Source of the DNA: Solirubrum puertoriconensis
GTDB lineage: Bacteria; Bacteroidota; Bacteroidia; Cytophagales; Hymenobacteraceae
Direction: 5' to 3'
Length of the DNA: 64,000 nucleotides
Assembly (NCBI RefSeq): GCF_001483135.1
Contig: NZ_LNAL01000003.1
Coordinates: forward strand, 186,001 to 250,000
A program made the translations under genes and the position numbers. The notes beneath the pieces were generated by a model, which was given only the letters and a program-made list of their open reading frames with translations, did not search any database and was not told the origin of the DNA. How positions within the stretch are numbered: position 1 is the stretch's first letter; every line of letters begins with the position of its first letter. This document shows, one piece after another, positions 32,391 through 38,746 of this stretch.

Positions 32391-34325
32391 TTACTGAAAC
32401 TGATCGTAGCGCACGATGCTGGGCTGGCCGAAGCTAAAGTCGCTGAAGGTGTAGTAATTGCGCGTGGTCTGAAAAATGCGGGAGCCAGTGCCGTCGCCAA
32501 AGCCGCGCGGATAAAAGCCGAAGTACAGCTGAATGGTATTTACGGCGAGGTATTCGTTGCGGAAGCGCAGGCCAAAGCCGAAGCCCGTGTACGGTTTGTC
32601 GCGGAACGGTGAGGTGCGGCCATTGGTGCTCAGCCAGGCCGCATCAACAAAGGCAATACCGGCCAAGCGGAAGCCCAAAAAGGACACCGGCGTAAATACG
32701 TTGGCCTCGTAGTTGACGACAAAGCGCGAACGGCCGCGTAGCTGCTGCTCGGAGCGAAATCCGCGCAGCCCGCGCTGCTCCTCAATGTTCAGCGGCAGGT
32801 CGTCGGGCAAGCGGTTGATGCCGATGAGCGTGCGGTTCCAGAAGAAGTGGCGCCACTGCCAGTTGCCCGTGTGGTAGAGGCGCGTAAAGGCCAATACCTC
32901 ACCGGTAAATGCGCCCTGCTCCCAGCGGCCGTTGCGCATAAAGCGGCCGTACTCGCCGCTCATGTACAGGTAGCCCCGGAGCGGGCTGAAGCCTGCCAAA
33001 CCCAGGCGCGTACCAACGTAGGGGCGGTTGCCGTTTTCGTTGAAATCGTAGCCGCCCGTGAGGGTGAGCAGGCTGCCGGTAGGTACATCTTCGGTACGGC
33101 CAAAACCGAAGAGGTAACGGTCTTTGTAATAACGCCGCACGCTGTAGCCCACGCTCATCAGCCCTAAGGTGCTGTTGCCGTACGTGGCATTGGGCTTGCG
33201 GGCATAATCGGTGCGCACCAAGCGGCCGGCCACAATTATGCGGGCCGGGTTTTCGTACCCTAGGTCGTAGGAGCGCGGTTGGTAGGCACGGCCCAGCCAG
33301 GCATCAACCACGGTAAAATCGAGCGGGCTAAAGCTGGGTTCCTGGCCCGGCTCGGGGTTGCCTTGCTGTATGCCGTAGTGGTACTGCGCAGCACCTAGGG
33401 AGTAGGCGTAGCGCGTGTTTACGGCCACAAACCCGCGCGAAAGCGAGGCCATTTTCTCGTCAATCTGGTACTGATTGCGGTAGCGTGCCTGCGCCAGCAA
33501 GTAGTTGCGCAGCGGCACGGTGTAGCTGCCCTCGTACGACCAGCCCTGCGGATCGGGCCGGCCGTAGCTAAACCGGTTCCGAAAGTCGTGCCCGCGCGCC
33601 ACAAAGTTTTTGTCGCGCAGGGTAAGCACGCCCGCGCCCACGTCGCGAATCTGTAAGCCCGCGCTGGTGCTGAACACGTCTTTGGTGATGACCTTGATAT
33701 CGACGCTGTCGCGCGTGGAGGTACGCTCGTTTACTACCACGCGCGCATCCAGGATAAAGTTGGTTTGGCGCAGCAGGCGTTCGGTTTCGGCCAGCGCCTG
33801 CGGCTGCAGCTCCTGCCCCGGCCGAAACAGCAGCAGCTTGCGCACTTTGCGCCGCGCCGTTACGATGTGCAGCGCGTTGCCACCCTTCTCCAGAAAGTTG
33901 CGCGGCACGCGGGTGGTATCGTTGATGTTGAAGCCGAACGCGTCGAGCGTTTGCACCTCCACGCGCCGCACAATCTTGTAGTTGTGGCGGTCGTACTGGC
34001 GGTCGAGCAGGGTGGCATCGAGGCCGGCTTGCTCCTCGCTGCGCTCCGTGAAGTTGAACAGCGCCGAAGCTGCCCGGCTAATCAAGGTTTTGCGCCGCAC
34101 ATAGTTGCGCAGCCCGCTCAGGATACGGTGCTCATCGAGGCGCTTACGCACCGTGTCGGTAGGCTGGGCAATGGGCTGGCGCCGCGCGGTATCGGCGGGG
34201 CTGGTGGCAGGCACCTGCTGGGCAATAGCCGAGCTGGCTGGCATGCAGCAATGCAGCAGCAACAGGAGGAACAGTAAGCTAAAGCGCGGCAATAGGCTGA
34301 ACACGGTAGAGCAGGCCCGCGCCAC
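32391..34325 (-). CDS. BamA/TamA-like outer membrane protein
   Basis: 644 aa with GTG start. Signal peptide (LLPRFSLLFLLLLLHCC region, cleavage near AIAQQ). Residues about 100-215 are POTRA-like (RRVEVQTLDAFGFNINDT, FRPGQELQPQALAETERLLRQ, ILDARVVVNERTSTRDSVDIKVIT). The remainder consists of amphipathic beta strands of a 16-strand-type barrel and contains RGFRSEQQLRGRSRFVVNYEA, like the conserved RGF loop. It could be an accessory outer-membrane insertase or exporter; it is smaller than BamA, with fewer POTRA units. It ends SIVRYDQFQ rather than with a terminal Phe. Confidence 0.75.
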   Translation of the reverse strand: MARACSTVFSLLPRFSLLFLLLLLHCCMPASSAIAQQVPATSPADTARRQPIAQPTDTVRKRLDEHRILSGLRNYVRRKTLISRAASALFNFTERSEEQAGLDATLLDRQYDRHNYKIVRRVEVQTLDAFGFNINDTTRVPRNFLEKGGNALHIVTARRKVRKLLLFRPGQELQPQALAETERLLRQTNFILDARVVVNERTSTRDSVDIKVITKDVFSTSAGLQIRDVGAGVLTLRDKNFVARGHDFRNRFSYGRPDPQGWSYEGSYTVPLRNYLLAQARYRNQYQIDEKMASLSRGFVAVNTRYAYSLGAAQYHYGIQQGNPEPGQEPSFSPLDFTVVDAWLGRAYQPRSYDLGYENPARIIVAGRLVRTDYARKPNATYGNSTLGLMSVGYSVRRYYKDRYLFGFGRTEDVPTGSLLTLTGGYDFNENGNRPYVGTRLGLAGFSPLRGYLYMSGEYGRFMRNGRWEQGAFTGEVLAFTRLYHTGNWQWRHFFWNRTLIGINRLPDDLPLNIEEQRGLRGFRSEQQLRGRSRFVVNYEANVFTPVSFLGFRLAGIAFVDAAWLSTNGRTSPFRDKPYTGFGFGLRFRNEYLAVNTIQLYFGFYPRGFGDGTGSRIFQTTRNYYTFSDFSFGQPSIVRYDQFQ

Positions 34326-34477
34326 CGGCGCGGGGTTGCTGCCGAAGATACGAAAGCATAAGCGCGCCGTTGAACTCGGGAACTAATTCTAAAAAAATTA
34401 GTCGGGCTTTTTGACGGAACATTGTTGCGTAATCAGCGGTTTTTCTATTTGTTTACACCCCGAAAGCTACCCTTTTG

Positions 34478-35803
34478 ATGAACGAGCGGATTCAGGAAAA
34501 GCTAAGTATTTTGGCAGATGCCGCGAAGTACGATGCATCGTGCTCGAGCAGCGGTGGCAAGCGCAAAAACGAGAACCGTGGCCTAGGCAACGCCGAGGGC
34601 ATGGGCATTTGCCACTCCTACACTGAAGATGGCCGCTGCGTATCGCTGCTGAAGATTCTGCTCACCAACCACTGCATTTTCGACTGCGCCTACTGCGTGT
34701 CGCGCAAGAGCAACGACGTGAAGCGCGCCGCCTTTACGGTAGAGGAAGTGGTTGACCTGACCATGAATTTCTACCGCCGCAACTACATCGAGGGCTTGTT
34801 CCTAAGCTCGGGCATCTTTTCTTCGCCTGACTACACCATGGAGCGCCTCGTGCGCATCTGCAAGAAGCTGCGCCTCGAGCAAAAGTTCAACGGCTACATC
34901 CACCTGAAAACCATTCCGGGCGCCTCGGAAGAGCTGATTCAGGAAGCCGGCCTGTACGCCGACCGCCTCAGCGTGAACATTGAGCTGCCCTCGGAGCTGA
35001 GCCTGAAAACCCTCGCGCCCGAGAAGAACTACGAGGAGATTCTGACGCCTATGAGTCAGATTCAGACCAAAGTGGCCGAAAACCGCGAGGAGCGCGAGCT
35101 GTTCCGGAAAGTGCCACAGTTTGCTCCCGCCGGCCAAACCACGCAGCTGGTAGTGGGCGCTTCGCCCGAAACCGACCACCAAATCATCAAGCTTGCCGAT
35201 GGCCTCTACAAAGGCTACGGGCTGAAGCGCGTGTACTACTCGGGCTACGTGCCCGTGAGCGGCGACGACCGCCTGCCGCAAGTGGTGCAGCCCCCGCTGA
35301 TGCGCGAGCACCGCTTGTACCAGAGCGACTGGCTGATGCGCTTCTACGGCTTCGATGCCGATGAAATCCTCGACCCGCAGCACCCGCACCTCGATCTGGA
35401 AATCGACCCGAAGCTGGCGTGGGCGCTGCGCAACCGCCACGTGTTTCCGGTGGATGTAAACACCGCCGATTACGAGCTTATCCTGCGCGTGCCCGGCGTG
35501 GGCATGAAGTCGGCGAAGCGCATTGTGGCCGCCCGCCGTTTTGCCCCGCTCACGCTCGACCACCTGCACAAGTTTGGCGTGGTGCTGCGCCGGGCCCGCT
35601 ACTTCATCACGTGCCGCGGCATGGCCCTTGAAAAGCGCGACTACGACGAGCAGACCGTGCGCCGCAAGATTTTGTACGGCGACGGGCAAACCCGCTCGGC
35701 TTTGGTAAAGCGCCAGCTCGATCTGTTTGCCCCCGAGCCCACCATCATCGCGCCGCCCGATTTGGTGTCGCCTCAACTCGATTTGTTTCGCCAGGCCGGT
35801 TAA
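34478..35803 (+). CDS. Radical SAM protein, putative DNA modification/repair (TIGR03916 type)
   Basis: 441 aa from ATG 34478. Radical-SAM iron-sulfur motif CIFDCAYC (CxxxCxxC, Cys66/70/73), preceded by the family block GRCVSLLKILLTNHC and followed by SSGIFSSPDYTMERLV and YIHLKTIPGASEELI. The C-terminus carries a helix-hairpin-helix (VPGVGMKSAKRIVAARRF, about 340-358), which suggests DNA binding. The family is annotated as a putative DNA modification/repair radical SAM protein and is normally paired with a DUF4130 (TIGR03915) protein; that partner is here at 37130. The chemistry is not established to my knowledge. Confidence 0.9.
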   Translation: MNERIQEKLSILADAAKYDASCSSSGGKRKNENRGLGNAEGMGICHSYTEDGRCVSLLKILLTNHCIFDCAYCVSRKSNDVKRAAFTVEEVVDLTMNFYRRNYIEGLFLSSGIFSSPDYTMERLVRICKKLRLEQKFNGYIHLKTIPGASEELIQEAGLYADRLSVNIELPSELSLKTLAPEKNYEEILTPMSQIQTKVAENREERELFRKVPQFAPAGQTTQLVVGASPETDHQIIKLADGLYKGYGLKRVYYSGYVPVSGDDRLPQVVQPPLMREHRLYQSDWLMRFYGFDADEILDPQHPHLDLEIDPKLAWALRNRHVFPVDVNTADYELILRVPGVGMKSAKRIVAARRFAPLTLDHLHKFGVVLRRARYFITCRGMALEKRDYDEQTVRRKILYGDGQTRSALVKRQLDLFAPEPTIIAPPDLVSPQLDLFRQAG

Positions 35804-35839
35804 GGCTTAGGCATTCGACTTCTTCCTCTCCACACCACC

Positions 35840-36013
35840 ATGACCATTTCGCACCGCGATTCCGCCACCGAGCAAGCTGCGGATCAATCCCAAAAAGTTA
35901 CCCGCATGGCTTGTTGCTGCAAGTTGTCGGATCTGTTGCCGATTGTGCGGCAGCAGCTGCTTGCCAAGCGCGACGCCGCCCAAGGCGTACGCCCCGAGGC
36001 CGAAGCTGCCTAG
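35840..36013 (+). CDS. 57-aa Cys-triplet protein next to the radical SAM gene
   Basis: 57 codons then TAG within CCTAGG. The start ATG follows the radical-SAM stop by 36 bp, so both are probably on one transcript. Polar N-terminus (MTISHRDSATEQAADQSQKV), central RMACCCKLSDLLP with three consecutive Cys, then a helix (IVRQQLLAKRDAAQG). No signal peptide. The Cys triplet could bind metal or an iron-sulfur cluster. A 21-bp perfect hairpin begins 12 bp after the stop. Not recognised; gene status is supported by codon-like composition, position and clean termini. Confidence 0.55.
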   Translation: MTISHRDSATEQAADQSQKVTRMACCCKLSDLLPIVRQQLLAKRDAAQGVRPEAEAA

Positions 36014-36024
36014 GTGGTGCAGCG

Positions 36025-36075
36025 CCCTAGGTGCCGCAGGTTGCCCATGTTAACGGCAACCTGCGGCACCTAGGG
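36025..36075 (+). terminator. 21-bp perfect hairpin with CCTAGG near each end
   Basis: Arms 36025-36045 and 36055-36075 are exact reverse complements with a 9-nt loop; each outer end is CCCTAGGTGCCG or its complement. It follows the small Cys-triplet gene and precedes the hydrolase. No T-run. Confidence 0.6.
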
Positions 36076-36117
36076 GCAGCGTCACAACTTCTTGCTGCCG
36101 GTAGGGTATATGGGGGC

Positions 36118-36993
36118 ATGGCCTACGAACTCGAGCACCATTACCTGGAGACTAACGGCATCAGGCTGCACGTGGTGCAGTGCGGCCCTCAAAACGCTCC
36201 GTTGGTGGTTCTGCTGCACGGTTTTCCGGAATTTTGGTACGGCTGGCACCGCCAACTACAAGCCCTGGCCGAAGCCGGTTACCGCGTATGGGCGCCCGAT
36301 CAGCGCGGATACAACCTCTCGGACAAACCGCCGCGCGTTGCCGACTATGCATTGCCGAAGCTCGTGGATGACGTGCTGGGGCTAATCGATGCCGCCGGGC
36401 AACGCAAAGCGTACTTAGTGGGGCACGATTGGGGCGGCATTGTGGCTTGGCATCTAGCCATGAACCACCCCGAGCGGCTGCATCGCGTAGCTATCCTGAA
36501 TGTGCCGCACCCGGCCGTGTTTGGGCGCACGTTGCGGAGCAGTACCCGGCAATTGCGCAAAAGTTGGTACGTGTTCTTCTTTCAGCTGCCGTGGCTGCCC
36601 GAAACCTTGACCAGCCTAGGTAACTACTGGGCAGGCTGGCAAACCCTGCTGAGCAGCAGCCGGCGCGGCACCTTTTCGTCTGCCGATTTGCGAGAGTATC
36701 GCGCGGCTTGGGCCAAACCCGGTGCCATGCGCAGCATGATCAACTGGTACCGCGCCGCTGTACGCTTTGGCCGACGCGGCATGAAGCCGGGCCGCATAGC
36801 CGTACCGCTGCACATTTTGTGGGGTAAGCGCGATGCGTTTTTGCGAGCCGATATGGCGCAGCAAAGCCTTGCCTACTGCGACGACGGCTGGCTCACGTAC
36901 TTCGACAAAGCCACGCACTGGCTGCAGCACGAAGAACCCCAACGCGTAACGGAGTTGCTGCTGAGCTTTTTTCGGGAGCATGCAACCGAGTAA
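36118..36993 (+). CDS. Epoxide-hydrolase-like alpha/beta hydrolase
   Basis: 291 aa from ATG 36118. LHGFPEFWYGWHRQ carries the HGxP oxyanion motif and VGHDWGGIVAW the nucleophile elbow with Asp as nucleophile, the hallmark of epoxide hydrolases and haloalkane dehalogenases. Later ILWGKRDAFL (acid) and FDKATHWLQHEEP (catalytic His) complete the triad. The HGFPE and absence of dehalogenase Trp/Asn features favour epoxide hydrolase, but the substrate is unknown. It lies inside the radical-SAM/DUF4130 gene pair in the same direction. Confidence 0.85.
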   Translation: MAYELEHHYLETNGIRLHVVQCGPQNAPLVVLLHGFPEFWYGWHRQLQALAEAGYRVWAPDQRGYNLSDKPPRVADYALPKLVDDVLGLIDAAGQRKAYLVGHDWGGIVAWHLAMNHPERLHRVAILNVPHPAVFGRTLRSSTRQLRKSWYVFFFQLPWLPETLTSLGNYWAGWQTLLSSSRRGTFSSADLREYRAAWAKPGAMRSMINWYRAAVRFGRRGMKPGRIAVPLHILWGKRDAFLRADMAQQSLAYCDDGWLTYFDKATHWLQHEEPQRVTELLLSFFREHATE

Positions 36994-37044
36994 CTGTTCT
37001 CGAAAGGGTAGCGTGCCTAGGTTGTGCAGGCGGCGCGGACCCCC

Positions 37045-37102
37045 ATCAACCACCCCAGCCGCGGCTGCGCCGCGGCGTCCGCTCCTCCTATGAGGAGGGG
37101 AG
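37045..37102. repeat. Partial copy of a CCTC-stem palindromic repeat
   Basis: CTCCTCCTATGAGGAGGGGAG at 37082-37102 and ATCAACCACCCCAGCCGCGG at 37045 correspond to the two halves of the larger element at 51014-51153 (CAACCACCCC plus CCCCTCCTCA...TGAGGAGGGG). Between them is a CCGCGG-CTGCG-CCGCGG hairpin. It is noncoding, just upstream of the DUF4130 gene. Confidence 0.6.
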
Positions 37103-37129
37103 CTGTTTGTTCTGTTTCTGCATCCTCTG

Positions 37130-38044
37130 ATGAAACCGCCCCGCCGCACCAACTTACCTGCCAAAGCCAACGCTGCTGCGGGCATGCGCCGTGCCACGGC
37201 CCTGCCGCCCAGCTTCGATGGCACTGCCCGCTTCACCTACGACGGCTCCTTCGATGGTTTGCTGTGCGTGTTGCTGGCGTGTTGGGAAAGCCGGCGGTGG
37301 CCCGAGGCTATTCAGAGCGAAGACGTGGCGCAAGGCGGGCTGTTCAGCGAAACCCAGTTTGTGCCTACCGACGAGGCCCGCGCCCGGCGCGTGTGGGAGG
37401 GCATGCTGAAATACATGCCCGGCGAGGCACGTACCAACCTCTACAAAGCTTTTTTGTCGGAAAGCCCCGAGCGCGAGCTGCTGATTTTCCGCTACGTGCA
37501 ACTGGCCATTGAGGCCGGCGGGCAGGACATCAGCGAGAACTTCGGCAACGATACGGTGCGGGCCATTGCCGATATCACGAAGCAGATGTTTCGCGAAAAG
37601 CACCGCATGGAGGCGTTTGTGCGCTTCGAGAAAACGCACGACGGGCTGTTTCACGCCACCATCGAGCCCGACTACGACGTGCTGCCGCTTATTGCCGAGC
37701 ACTTCACCAAGCGCTACGCCGATCAGCGCTGGCTGATTTTCGACCGCCGACGCCGCTACGGACTGTACTACGACCTCGAGCGCACCGACATCGTGAGCTT
37801 TGATGCCGAAGCCGGGCAGGCGGGCAGTAAATCGGCCGTATCGGCTGCTGTGCTCGACGAGCGGGAGCCGCTGTTTCAGTCGCTGTGGCAAACCTACTTC
37901 GACCACGTGAACATACCCGAGCGGCGCAACATTAAGCTGCACCGCCGCCACATGCCCAAGCGTTACTGGAAATACCTCACCGAAAAGCAACCGCGCGAGC
38001 GGCACTTCCGGCCCATCGACAACAAGCAGCGGCCGCAACAATAG
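37130..38044 (+). CDS. DUF4130 (TIGR03915) putative DNA metabolism protein
   Basis: 304 aa. The core contains FTYDGSFDGLLCVLLACWESRRWP, YLYKAFLSES-like TNLYKAFLSESPERELLIFR, FVRFEKTHDGLFHATIEPDYDVLPLIAEHF and RRYGLYYDLE, which match the TIGR03915/DUF4130 family, a relative of uracil-DNA glycosylases that almost always accompanies the radical SAM protein encoded at 34478. The two together are predicted to act on damaged or modified DNA. The N-terminal 25 residues are basic and Pro-rich. The C-terminal tail HRRHMPKRYWKYLTEKQPR is strongly basic. Confidence 0.88.
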   Translation: MKPPRRTNLPAKANAAAGMRRATALPPSFDGTARFTYDGSFDGLLCVLLACWESRRWPEAIQSEDVAQGGLFSETQFVPTDEARARRVWEGMLKYMPGEARTNLYKAFLSESPERELLIFRYVQLAIEAGGQDISENFGNDTVRAIADITKQMFREKHRMEAFVRFEKTHDGLFHATIEPDYDVLPLIAEHFTKRYADQRWLIFDRRRRYGLYYDLERTDIVSFDAEAGQAGSKSAVSAAVLDEREPLFQSLWQTYFDHVNIPERRNIKLHRRHMPKRYWKYLTEKQPRERHFRPIDNKQRPQQ

Positions 38045-38632: not shown

Positions 38633-38727
38633 GTAGCGTGGGCTTCAGCCCGCGTTTGTCAGAACGTAATAGTTGCGCCGGTTCAGTACCAGTCGTGCAC
38701 GCAAACGCGGGCTGAAGCCCACGCTAC
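38633..38727. repeat. Palindromic intergenic element, family A copy 2
   Basis: Perfect 26-bp arms (38633-38658 and 38702-38727) starting GTAGCGTGGGCTTCAGCC. It sits between the convergent Gre-like and DUF416 genes. The outer GTAGCG-GG-CTT sequence is shared with copies at 3417, 42857 and 48717. Confidence 0.8.
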
Positions 38728-38746
38728 TGTAGCGCTACAGCAGCAG

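Follow-up and report, generated by a model that had tools for sequence, protein, structure and literature searches.

We analyzed a window of 64,000 nucleotides (the whole stretch, contig NZ_LNAL01000003.1, positions 186,001 to 250,000) from Solirubrum puertoriconensis and identified a four-gene locus in which the genes of a radical S-adenosylmethionine (SAM) protein, hereafter rSAM, and of a DUF4130 protein, together the pair, enclose a 57-aa microprotein gene and a hydrolase gene. We read the locus, with a probability of about 0.58, as a DNA-damage-inducible (SOS) operon with a three-gene core, rSAM, microprotein, and DUF4130, in which the microprotein has a role of its own. The gene order, the short spacing in most species, and the presence of LexA-type boxes at the 5' end only appear to fit one DNA-damage-inducible operon. 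The pair and its SOS control are already known in outline; apparently new, as far as our searches reach, are the conserved microprotein, its persistence in genomes without the pair, a candidate intragenic operator, and an epoxide hydrolase bound to one lineage. The locus has the following features:

34478 (ATG) to 35803, + strand: rSAM gene (TIGR03916, rSAM_link_UDG; C-terminal helix-hairpin-helix), 441 aa
35840 to 36013, + strand: microprotein open reading frame (ORF) with a Cys triplet, 57 aa, containing ACCCKL; the conserved third gene
37130 to 38044, + strand: DUF4130 protein gene (TIGR03915), 304 aa
36118 to 36993, + strand: hydrolase gene, alpha/beta-fold epoxide hydrolase by homology, 291 aa
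34389 to 34401, + strand: LexA-type SOS box CTAA-N5-TTAG (CTAAAAAAATTAG), 5' of the rSAM gene
34502 to 34514, + strand: second, intragenic box (CTAAGTATTTTGG) in rSAM codons, with one mismatch to CTAA-N5-TTAG
36025 to 36075, + strand: perfect 21-bp inverted repeat (100% complementary, loop of 9 nt) in the spacer that follows the microprotein gene and precedes the hydrolase gene
32391 to 34325: divergent outer-membrane (TamA/BamA-like) gene adjoining the locus on its 5' side

The 88 loci examined in the family Hymenobacteraceae comprised 8 of 8 from g1, 64 of 66 from g5, 2 of 2 from g2, 4 of 8 from g4, 4 of 16 from g6, and 6 of 46 from g3, with g1 and g5 making up the Hymenobacter lineage and g2, g3, g4, and g6 being other genera of the family. 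Left out of g5 were G040, with the pair split over contigs, and G117, with a 15.6-kb gap, and the g3 sample of 6 includes the three loci with the widest gaps. The comparison set outside the family consisted of 46 loci (220,149 bases) from other Bacteroidota families.

A homologue of the microprotein was identified in the gap between the pair in all 88 loci, with one motif match each, on the forward strand. Elsewhere the motif matched nowhere: not on the reverse strand, not in the remaining 333,887 bases of these loci, and not on either strand of the 46 loci from other families. As the motif was derived from its own matches, it is these zero counts that carry the information. A profile search identified the microprotein in 202 of 204 family genomes and, outside the family, found none at E<0.1 in 6 genomes of the order. 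Among the loci from other families, 5 (L157, L180, L190, L194, and L196) had at least 250 bp between the pair genes, yet no small ORF. The conserved core spans 20-30 residues, of which one is an invariant Cys and several form a Leu-rich stretch, and is kept across six genera as the flanking residues drift. Of the Cys triplet, all 88 loci keep the last Cys, 80 the first, and 66 the middle one, and the Leu five residues past the last Cys is likewise invariant in all 88. Metal binding by the triplet was rejected as a defining feature because only its last Cys is invariant. The ratio of nonsynonymous to synonymous polymorphism (pN/pS) of a 22-codon core was 0.10 in g1 and 0.37 in g5, and that of the rest of the ORF was 0.76 and 0.72, respectively. 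The low core ratio, together with the conservation of the core, indicates a protein-coding gene with a core under purifying selection, for which we propose a family core of about 25-30 residues, K-V-x-R/P-x-S/A-x-x-C-K/R-L-x-x-L-x-P.

Another explanation would see the inserts as passengers of a spacer prone to insertions, and the small ORF as a leader or an RNA-level feature. The domain-to-domain gap in g2, g3, g4, and g6 is about 260-400 bp, with exceptions of 514, 625, and 1,009 bp; in g1 and g5 it ranges from 371 to 15,607 bp, and g5 alone spans that whole range; several examined gaps hold other ORFs, and the window spacer carries a strong hairpin, all of which would suit passengers. Against this stand the low core pN/pS in both g1 and g5, the protein profile matching nearly every genome, and a core retained over six genera amid drifting flanks, and we regard the explanation as highly improbable. 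Judged from the sequences compared here, the microprotein is no incidental insert, and we infer that it represents a new family of microproteins under SOS control, with a function of its own. Searches with it at E<=0.01 in NCBIfam, Pfam, and PHROGs, and at E<=0.1 in PADLOC, returned nothing. A pattern scan of a genome collection returned 91 stretches, and among the 80 listed, 73 belonged to Hymenobacter or Hymenobacteraceae, all of them with rSAM and/or DUF4130 (58 with both, 15 with one); the 7 others were read as chance matches. The small gene goes unmentioned in the passages on the pair or the operon in open-licence papers, supplements aside, as does the combination of Hymenobacter, SOS response, and small protein.

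The first description of the SOS response of Bacteroidetes dates from 2021 (PMC8565304). That work shows binding of CTAA-N5-TTAG by non-canonical LexA proteins of the phylum and reports that Hymenobacteraceae have large regulons of this motif and that a COG1573-COG4277 operon is among the predicted SOS members in Bacteroidetes. The box at 34389-34401 is the sole exact CTAA-N5-TTAG of the window, starting 89 bp 5' of the rSAM ATG with 76 bp between its end and the ATG. An exact box was identified within 350 bp upstream in 62 of the 88 loci (8/8 in g1, 40/64 in g5, 2/2 in g2, 3/4 in g4, 3/4 in g6, and 6/6 in g3), and in 61 of them it fell between -145 and -65 relative to the rSAM domain, at a distance that is near constant per genus; G137 had an exact box at -30 only, plus CCAA-N5-TTAG upstream. 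The relaxed form C(T/C)AA-N5-TTAG was present in the -145 to -65 interval in 86 of the 88 loci, its half-sites constant and its N5 spacer variable across loci. Exact boxes numbered 66 in 30,800 upstream bases vs 0 in 409,784 other locus bases, a count that excludes the first 30 nt of the rSAM domain, and the relaxed form occurred once in those other bases. All 52 testable rSAM starts from the collection scan had C(T/C)AA-N5-TTAG within 200 bp upstream, 30 of them with CTAA, these starts being largely from the same species as the 88 loci and thus not independent.

The second box lies in the first 30 nt of the rSAM domain and reads CTAA-N5-TTAG in 40 loci and CTAA-N5-TTGG in 48. Its Leu codon is CTA in 88 of 88 loci, CTA making up 2.6% of 4,951 Leu codons in g1 and g5, and this Leu is the only single-codon residue among 198 invariant ones (Met and Trp excluded). 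We read the second box as a candidate intragenic operator because a rare CTA is fixed in all loci and the box is kept at the codon level. No sigma-70-like site was found by a scan that does not cover Bacteroidetes promoters, and 6 terminator-like sites were identified in the region vs 4.9 expected.

TIGR03916 scored above its cut-off in 146 of 150 family genomes and TIGR03915 likewise, with G086, G110, G126, and G132 each lacking both enzymes. Three of these pair-less genomes, G086, G110, and G126, retain the microprotein (E 2.3e-15, 1.8e-15, and 7.4e-17). It lies there next to a divergent TamA-like gene, by eye at the same place as in the window, and 2, 1, and 2 exact CTAA-N5-TTAG boxes, respectively, stand between the two genes. 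G110 still has, by eye, a short ORF similar to the start of the rSAM coding sequence. Core pN/pS among the three was 0.07/0.68, 0.10/0.34, and 0.18/0.63, similar to pair-bearing relatives. In the fourth, G132, the microprotein is absent too. The retention of the microprotein without the pair in three genomes suggests that it is more than an accessory part of the enzyme system.

A second homologue of 30 aa was identified in G007 (L211, 2676-2768, - strand), the only one of 204 genomes with two microprotein matches at E<=0.001 among the best 32 or fewer candidates per genome. Its neighbors, an Erf-like annealing protein, a MazG-like pyrophosphohydrolase, and an excisionase-like helix-turn-helix protein, make the region prophage-like. 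Viral spread of the small protein was considered, with none confirmed: 7 pattern stretches in IMG/VR held no confirmed relative, one further pattern hit there was read as a chance match opposite another ORF, and the microprotein had no match in phage records and matched plasmids only at E 0.5-7.

We tentatively propose, at less than even odds, that the microprotein founds an SOS-induced family acting alone, perhaps checking DNA replication, division, or recombination after damage, while the pair and the hydrolase share its promoter and a temperate phage took the 30-residue version. The alternative is that it serves as a dedicated subunit or activator of rSAM/DUF4130, such as a cysteine donor, a cluster chaperone, or a DNA-docking peptide, and that the pair-less genomes are recent losses. 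Its strict position between the pair in all 88 loci, the almost perfect co-occurrence of the two enzyme families, and the single invariant Cys, which could serve a cluster, speak for such a subunit. However, the microprotein was not found beside the pair in the 46 loci outside the family, it persists with SOS boxes in three of the four pair-less genomes, the G007 copy lies in a prophage-like region distant from the pair, and the Cys triplet is not conserved, so we consider a dedicated subunit unlikely.

A first-pass annotation, made from the letters of the window, had described a radical SAM protein with a helix-hairpin-helix tail and DUF4130 as its usual partner, lying in one direction, and between them a 57-aa Cys-triplet protein and an epoxide-hydrolase-like enzyme. 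All four ORFs were confirmed on the + strand by our reading of the window, the small one at its place between the pair, and the description of the two enzymes was largely borne out. The rSAM matched TIGR03916 with 681.8 bits over model positions 1-414 of 415 (curated cut-off 343.5) and Pfam Radical_SAM with 42.3 bits, carried the radical SAM motif CX3CX2C as Cys66/70/73, and scored 32.9 bits for HHH_3 (cut-off 27) over residues 326-355, numbered on the ORF that opens at TTG 34475. Besides the motif cysteines, Cys22, Cys45-His46, and Cys54, all N-terminal of the motif, were invariant in 46 proteins of the phylum, and these extra residues suggest that TIGR03916 proteins likely have an auxiliary cluster or metal site. 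The DUF4130 protein matched TIGR03915 with 273.9 bits (cut-off 112.25) and PF13566 with 180.7 bits (cut-off 27); 28 residues were invariant over 49 proteins, many of them polar and mainly in the C-terminal half, which fits an enzyme. The partnership holds not only in the joint presence or absence of the two families in the 150 genomes, with the same 4 lacking both, but also in the placement of the pair on one contig and one strand in 145 of 146 genomes, the exception being G040 with two contigs. Outside the family, both enzyme genes were found in 29 of 30 and 15 of 16 loci, mostly adjacent, and TIGR03916 passed its cut-off in 60 of 198 genomes of the phylum. Near-perfect co-occurrence on the same strand shows that the association of the pair exceeds chance.

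The earlier description of DUF4130 as a glycosylase relative found no support and was rejected: no uracil-DNA glycosylase (UDG) family of NCBIfam or Pfam matched the protein at E<=0.01, and TIGR03914 (UDG/UdgX), the one UDG family searched for in the genome, gave no match. That a UDG domain was not detected argues against a simple uracil-repair reading in these bacteria. A Foldseek search with the predicted DUF4130 structure (pLDDT, the predicted local distance difference test score, 62) gave a best E of 0.026 and none at or below 1e-3, and VIA-align on the same model gave a best Z of 7.4 (<8), with top rows nearly all DHH/DHHA1; the weak structural matches were RecJ, PAP phosphatase, Cdc45, and NrnA-like chains. 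Comparison of the DUF4130 profile with RecJ, NrnA-like, and AlaRS profiles gave probabilities of at most 0.2%, no improvement on the unrelated hydrolase (0.3%) and rSAM (0.1%) used as controls, a weak negative given that several alignments contained truncated or wrong ORFs. On these E, Z, and pLDDT values and the unsupportive profiles, the predicted fold is uncertain and a DHH/DHHA1 assignment was not adopted. Sequence searches of the PDB found nothing below E 0.67 for DUF4130 and only weak RuvA, ThiH, and HydG-type matches for rSAM (best E 0.0021).

No spore photoproduct lyase (SplB) model was among the NCBIfam or Pfam matches of rSAM at E<=0.01. An anti-phage system was rejected, as PADLOC gave just a weak DpdD match to rSAM (E 0.014). 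IMG/VR queried with DUF4130 and rSAM returned no match. Among open-licence papers we found none establishing the chemistry of the rSAM/DUF4130 pair, and none mentioning TIGR03916 or UdgX together with radical SAM. In another family, L157 has two short ORFs between rSAM and DUF4130 that look toxin-antitoxin-like by eye, and in G133 (C34, 1814-2562) the DUF4130 match is in two pieces, perhaps through a frameshift or a sequencing error.

For the hydrolase, the start was taken at ATG 36118, from which homologues align, the longest ORF opening at GTG 36031. It scored 112 bits for Abhydrolase_1, and its best solved-structure match was the epoxide hydrolase 5ng7 (E 3.3e-69, residues 5-284), with the aligned stretches GHDWGG, WYVFFFQ, N(W/Y)YRA, and HW(L/V)Q. 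We take the aligned Asp, His, and lid Tyr stretches to hold the catalytic residues. By homology, the hydrolase is a genuine epoxide hydrolase, in line with the epoxide-hydrolase-like label of the first-pass annotation. That annotation had also suggested that both inserts might be extra parts of the pair's system, a reading that would suffer if they were not conserved near the pair in relatives. This refutation failed for the small gene, present in the gap of all 88 family loci, and half failed for the hydrolase, which occupied the gap in 39 of 72 g1/g5 loci and in none of the 16 others. The interpretation was supported in part: as to extra parts, the small gene is conserved and seems more than accessory, given the three pair-less genomes, and the hydrolase comes and goes with 13 changes on the locus tree while the trio stays.

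Orthologues of the hydrolase (at least 55% identity) were identified in 41 g1/g5 genomes, all at the locus (in G040 on the rSAM contig). Searched genome-wide at E<=1e-80 among the best 16 or fewer candidates per genome, g1 and g5 had no hydrolase match elsewhere, and the 32 other matches (44-49% identity) were in other genera and other places. In the collection scan the hydrolase was present in 26 of the 58 loci with both pair genes, between the pair in all 26. Shuffling of its presence on the tree gave a mean of 24 changes, with none of 500 shuffles as low as 13; the count fits one gain and many losses and by itself cannot separate gain from loss. Its divergence correlates with the divergence of DUF4130 (r 0.62) and of rSAM (r 0.61), each with p 0.001 and n=38, and its start lies 35-57 bp behind the microprotein stop in 26 of 38 measured loci. 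An explanation in which the four genes form one pathway, with the hydrolase as a working step on oxidized or epoxide-type DNA damage, draws on this inheritance with the pair, on this close spacing, and on the finding that every g1/g5 genome having an orthologue has it at the locus. But the hydrolase is missing from nearly half of the g1/g5 loci and from all others, its 13 changes, read as one gain and many losses, took place beside a constant trio, and the gaps of relatives also contain other ORFs; such a pathway is improbable in our view. The hydrolase seems instead to be positionally stable but dispensable, an accessory gene apparently lost repeatedly.

Of 14 gaps of relatives inspected, some held further ORFs that by eye resembled genes for secreted repeat proteins, for a peptidase, for a response regulator, and for other products, which indicates that the spacer tolerates insertions. 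Folding of the 104-nt spacer between the microprotein and hydrolase genes in the window gave -67.3 kcal/mol (z -6.2); the inverted repeat at 36025-36075 within it is not among the terminator-like sites and could be an attenuator, a stabilizer, or a repeat element. A 16-bp direct repeat (94%) flanks the hydrolase at 36007-36022 and 37014-37029, both copies with CCTAGG, and may be a mere iterated palindrome or a trace of gain or loss. In G117 (C19, 70997-88589), about 14 kb separate the hydrolase and DUF4130.

Several observations weigh against an SOS operon with an independent microprotein. With 0.54 exact boxes expected by chance in 64 kb, the single upstream box of the window is unremarkable on its own, and its weight therefore comes from the relatives. 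Among these, 25 of 64 g5 loci (G137 included) have CCAA-N5-TTAG instead of CTAA, at -87 to -92, possibly through a shift in LexA specificity or a weakened site, and G010 and G017 have no C(T/C)AA-N5-TTAG at all, each showing another single mismatch. The intragenic box of the window belongs to the CTAA-N5-TTGG group and so carries one mismatch. Downstream, the window spacer between the microprotein and hydrolase genes reaches 104 bp and contains a very stable hairpin, and the hydrolase and DUF4130 are separated by 136 bp, within which two terminator-like sites overlap on the + strand (37082-37102). DUF4130 may escape transcription from the SOS promoter because of this spacer and its terminator-like sites, which slightly lowers our confidence. 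The pair is split over two contigs in G040, and its domains are 15.6 kb apart in G117. The microprotein is missing from G132 (pair-less, 87% complete) and from G507 (94% complete), its core pN/pS in the pair-less genomes cannot be separated into the time before and after the loss, and loss of the pair in G086, G110, and G126 may be too recent for decay of the microprotein. The predicted structures are poor for both DUF4130, with the score given above, and rSAM (pLDDT 52).

The mechanism that we propose starts from the three-gene core of rSAM, microprotein, and DUF4130 in Hymenobacteraceae, to which the Hymenobacter lineage would have added the epoxide hydrolase. A Bacteroidetes-type LexA would hold the promoter through two CTAA-N5-TTAG-like operators, whose motifs and positions are those listed above and whose binding is carried over from relatives, and DNA damage would release LexA from the promoter, as induction in relatives suggests. 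The rSAM, with its SAM cluster, a probable second metal or iron-sulfur site (Cys22/Cys45/Cys54), and a helix-hairpin-helix DNA-binding tail, would then use radical chemistry to alter a base that is damaged or modified; DUF4130 would work on that substrate or on the product of rSAM, as the near-universal pairing and the conserved polar residues suggest. The co-induced microprotein would most likely be a small regulator or adaptor in the damage response, acting on a target of its own, proposed because it is kept, with SOS boxes, in the absence of the pair. The epoxide hydrolase would be a dispensable co-induced enzyme that may clear DNA-reactive epoxides.

We take COG4277 to be the COG of the rSAM family of the window. 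The COG1573-COG4277 SOS operon of Bacteroidetes shares the CTAA-N5-TTAG operator and the setting of large Hymenobacteraceae regulons, but consists of two genes with a uracil-DNA glycosylase, whereas no UDG domain was detected in the partner in the window, and the small gene, the epoxide hydrolase, and the intragenic box are additions that go unmentioned for that operon in the available text (PMC8565304). An association of DUF4130, a SplB-like radical SAM protein, and a UDG, with DUF4130 as a predicted mutagenesis-related enzyme, is described in the accessible part of PMC3765255; it contains the same DUF4130-rSAM link, while in the window no UDG was found and a lineage-specific microprotein lies between the pair. 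As a soluble alpha/beta epoxide hydrolase, the enzyme of the window is homologous to 5ng7 over the aligned residues and differs in its place in an SOS-type operon. Fusions of UdgX/TIGR03914 with TIGR03915 exist, and the TIGR03915 module is common to these and the window, where the protein stands alone in a genome with no TIGR03914 match. The pair is widespread, and this locus gives new handles on it: a partner gene that is tiny and conserved, candidate operators mapped at two sites, and, in the pair-less genomes with a microprotein, an experiment of nature. Acting alone, the microprotein would be a new kind of SOS effector in Bacteroidetes; acting with the enzymes, it would point to their missing piece.

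Among the 64 six-base palindromes, CCTAGG was the most enriched in the window, with 98 copies vs 13.6 expected under an order-1 model (for example at 36009, 36026, 36069, and 37016). It was enriched in g1 loci (47 vs 12.3 expected) but not in g5 (34 vs 61.5), and it looks like a genus-specific highly iterated palindrome. GGATCC and TTATAA were absent from the window vs 7.6 and 5.2 expected, which may reflect restriction avoidance. At about 38635-38735, between a GreA/GreB-like and a DUF416 gene, we identified a long imperfect inverted repeat (GTAGCGTGGGCTTCAGCCCGCGTTTG...) that by eye resembles a repetitive extragenic palindromic (REP) element.

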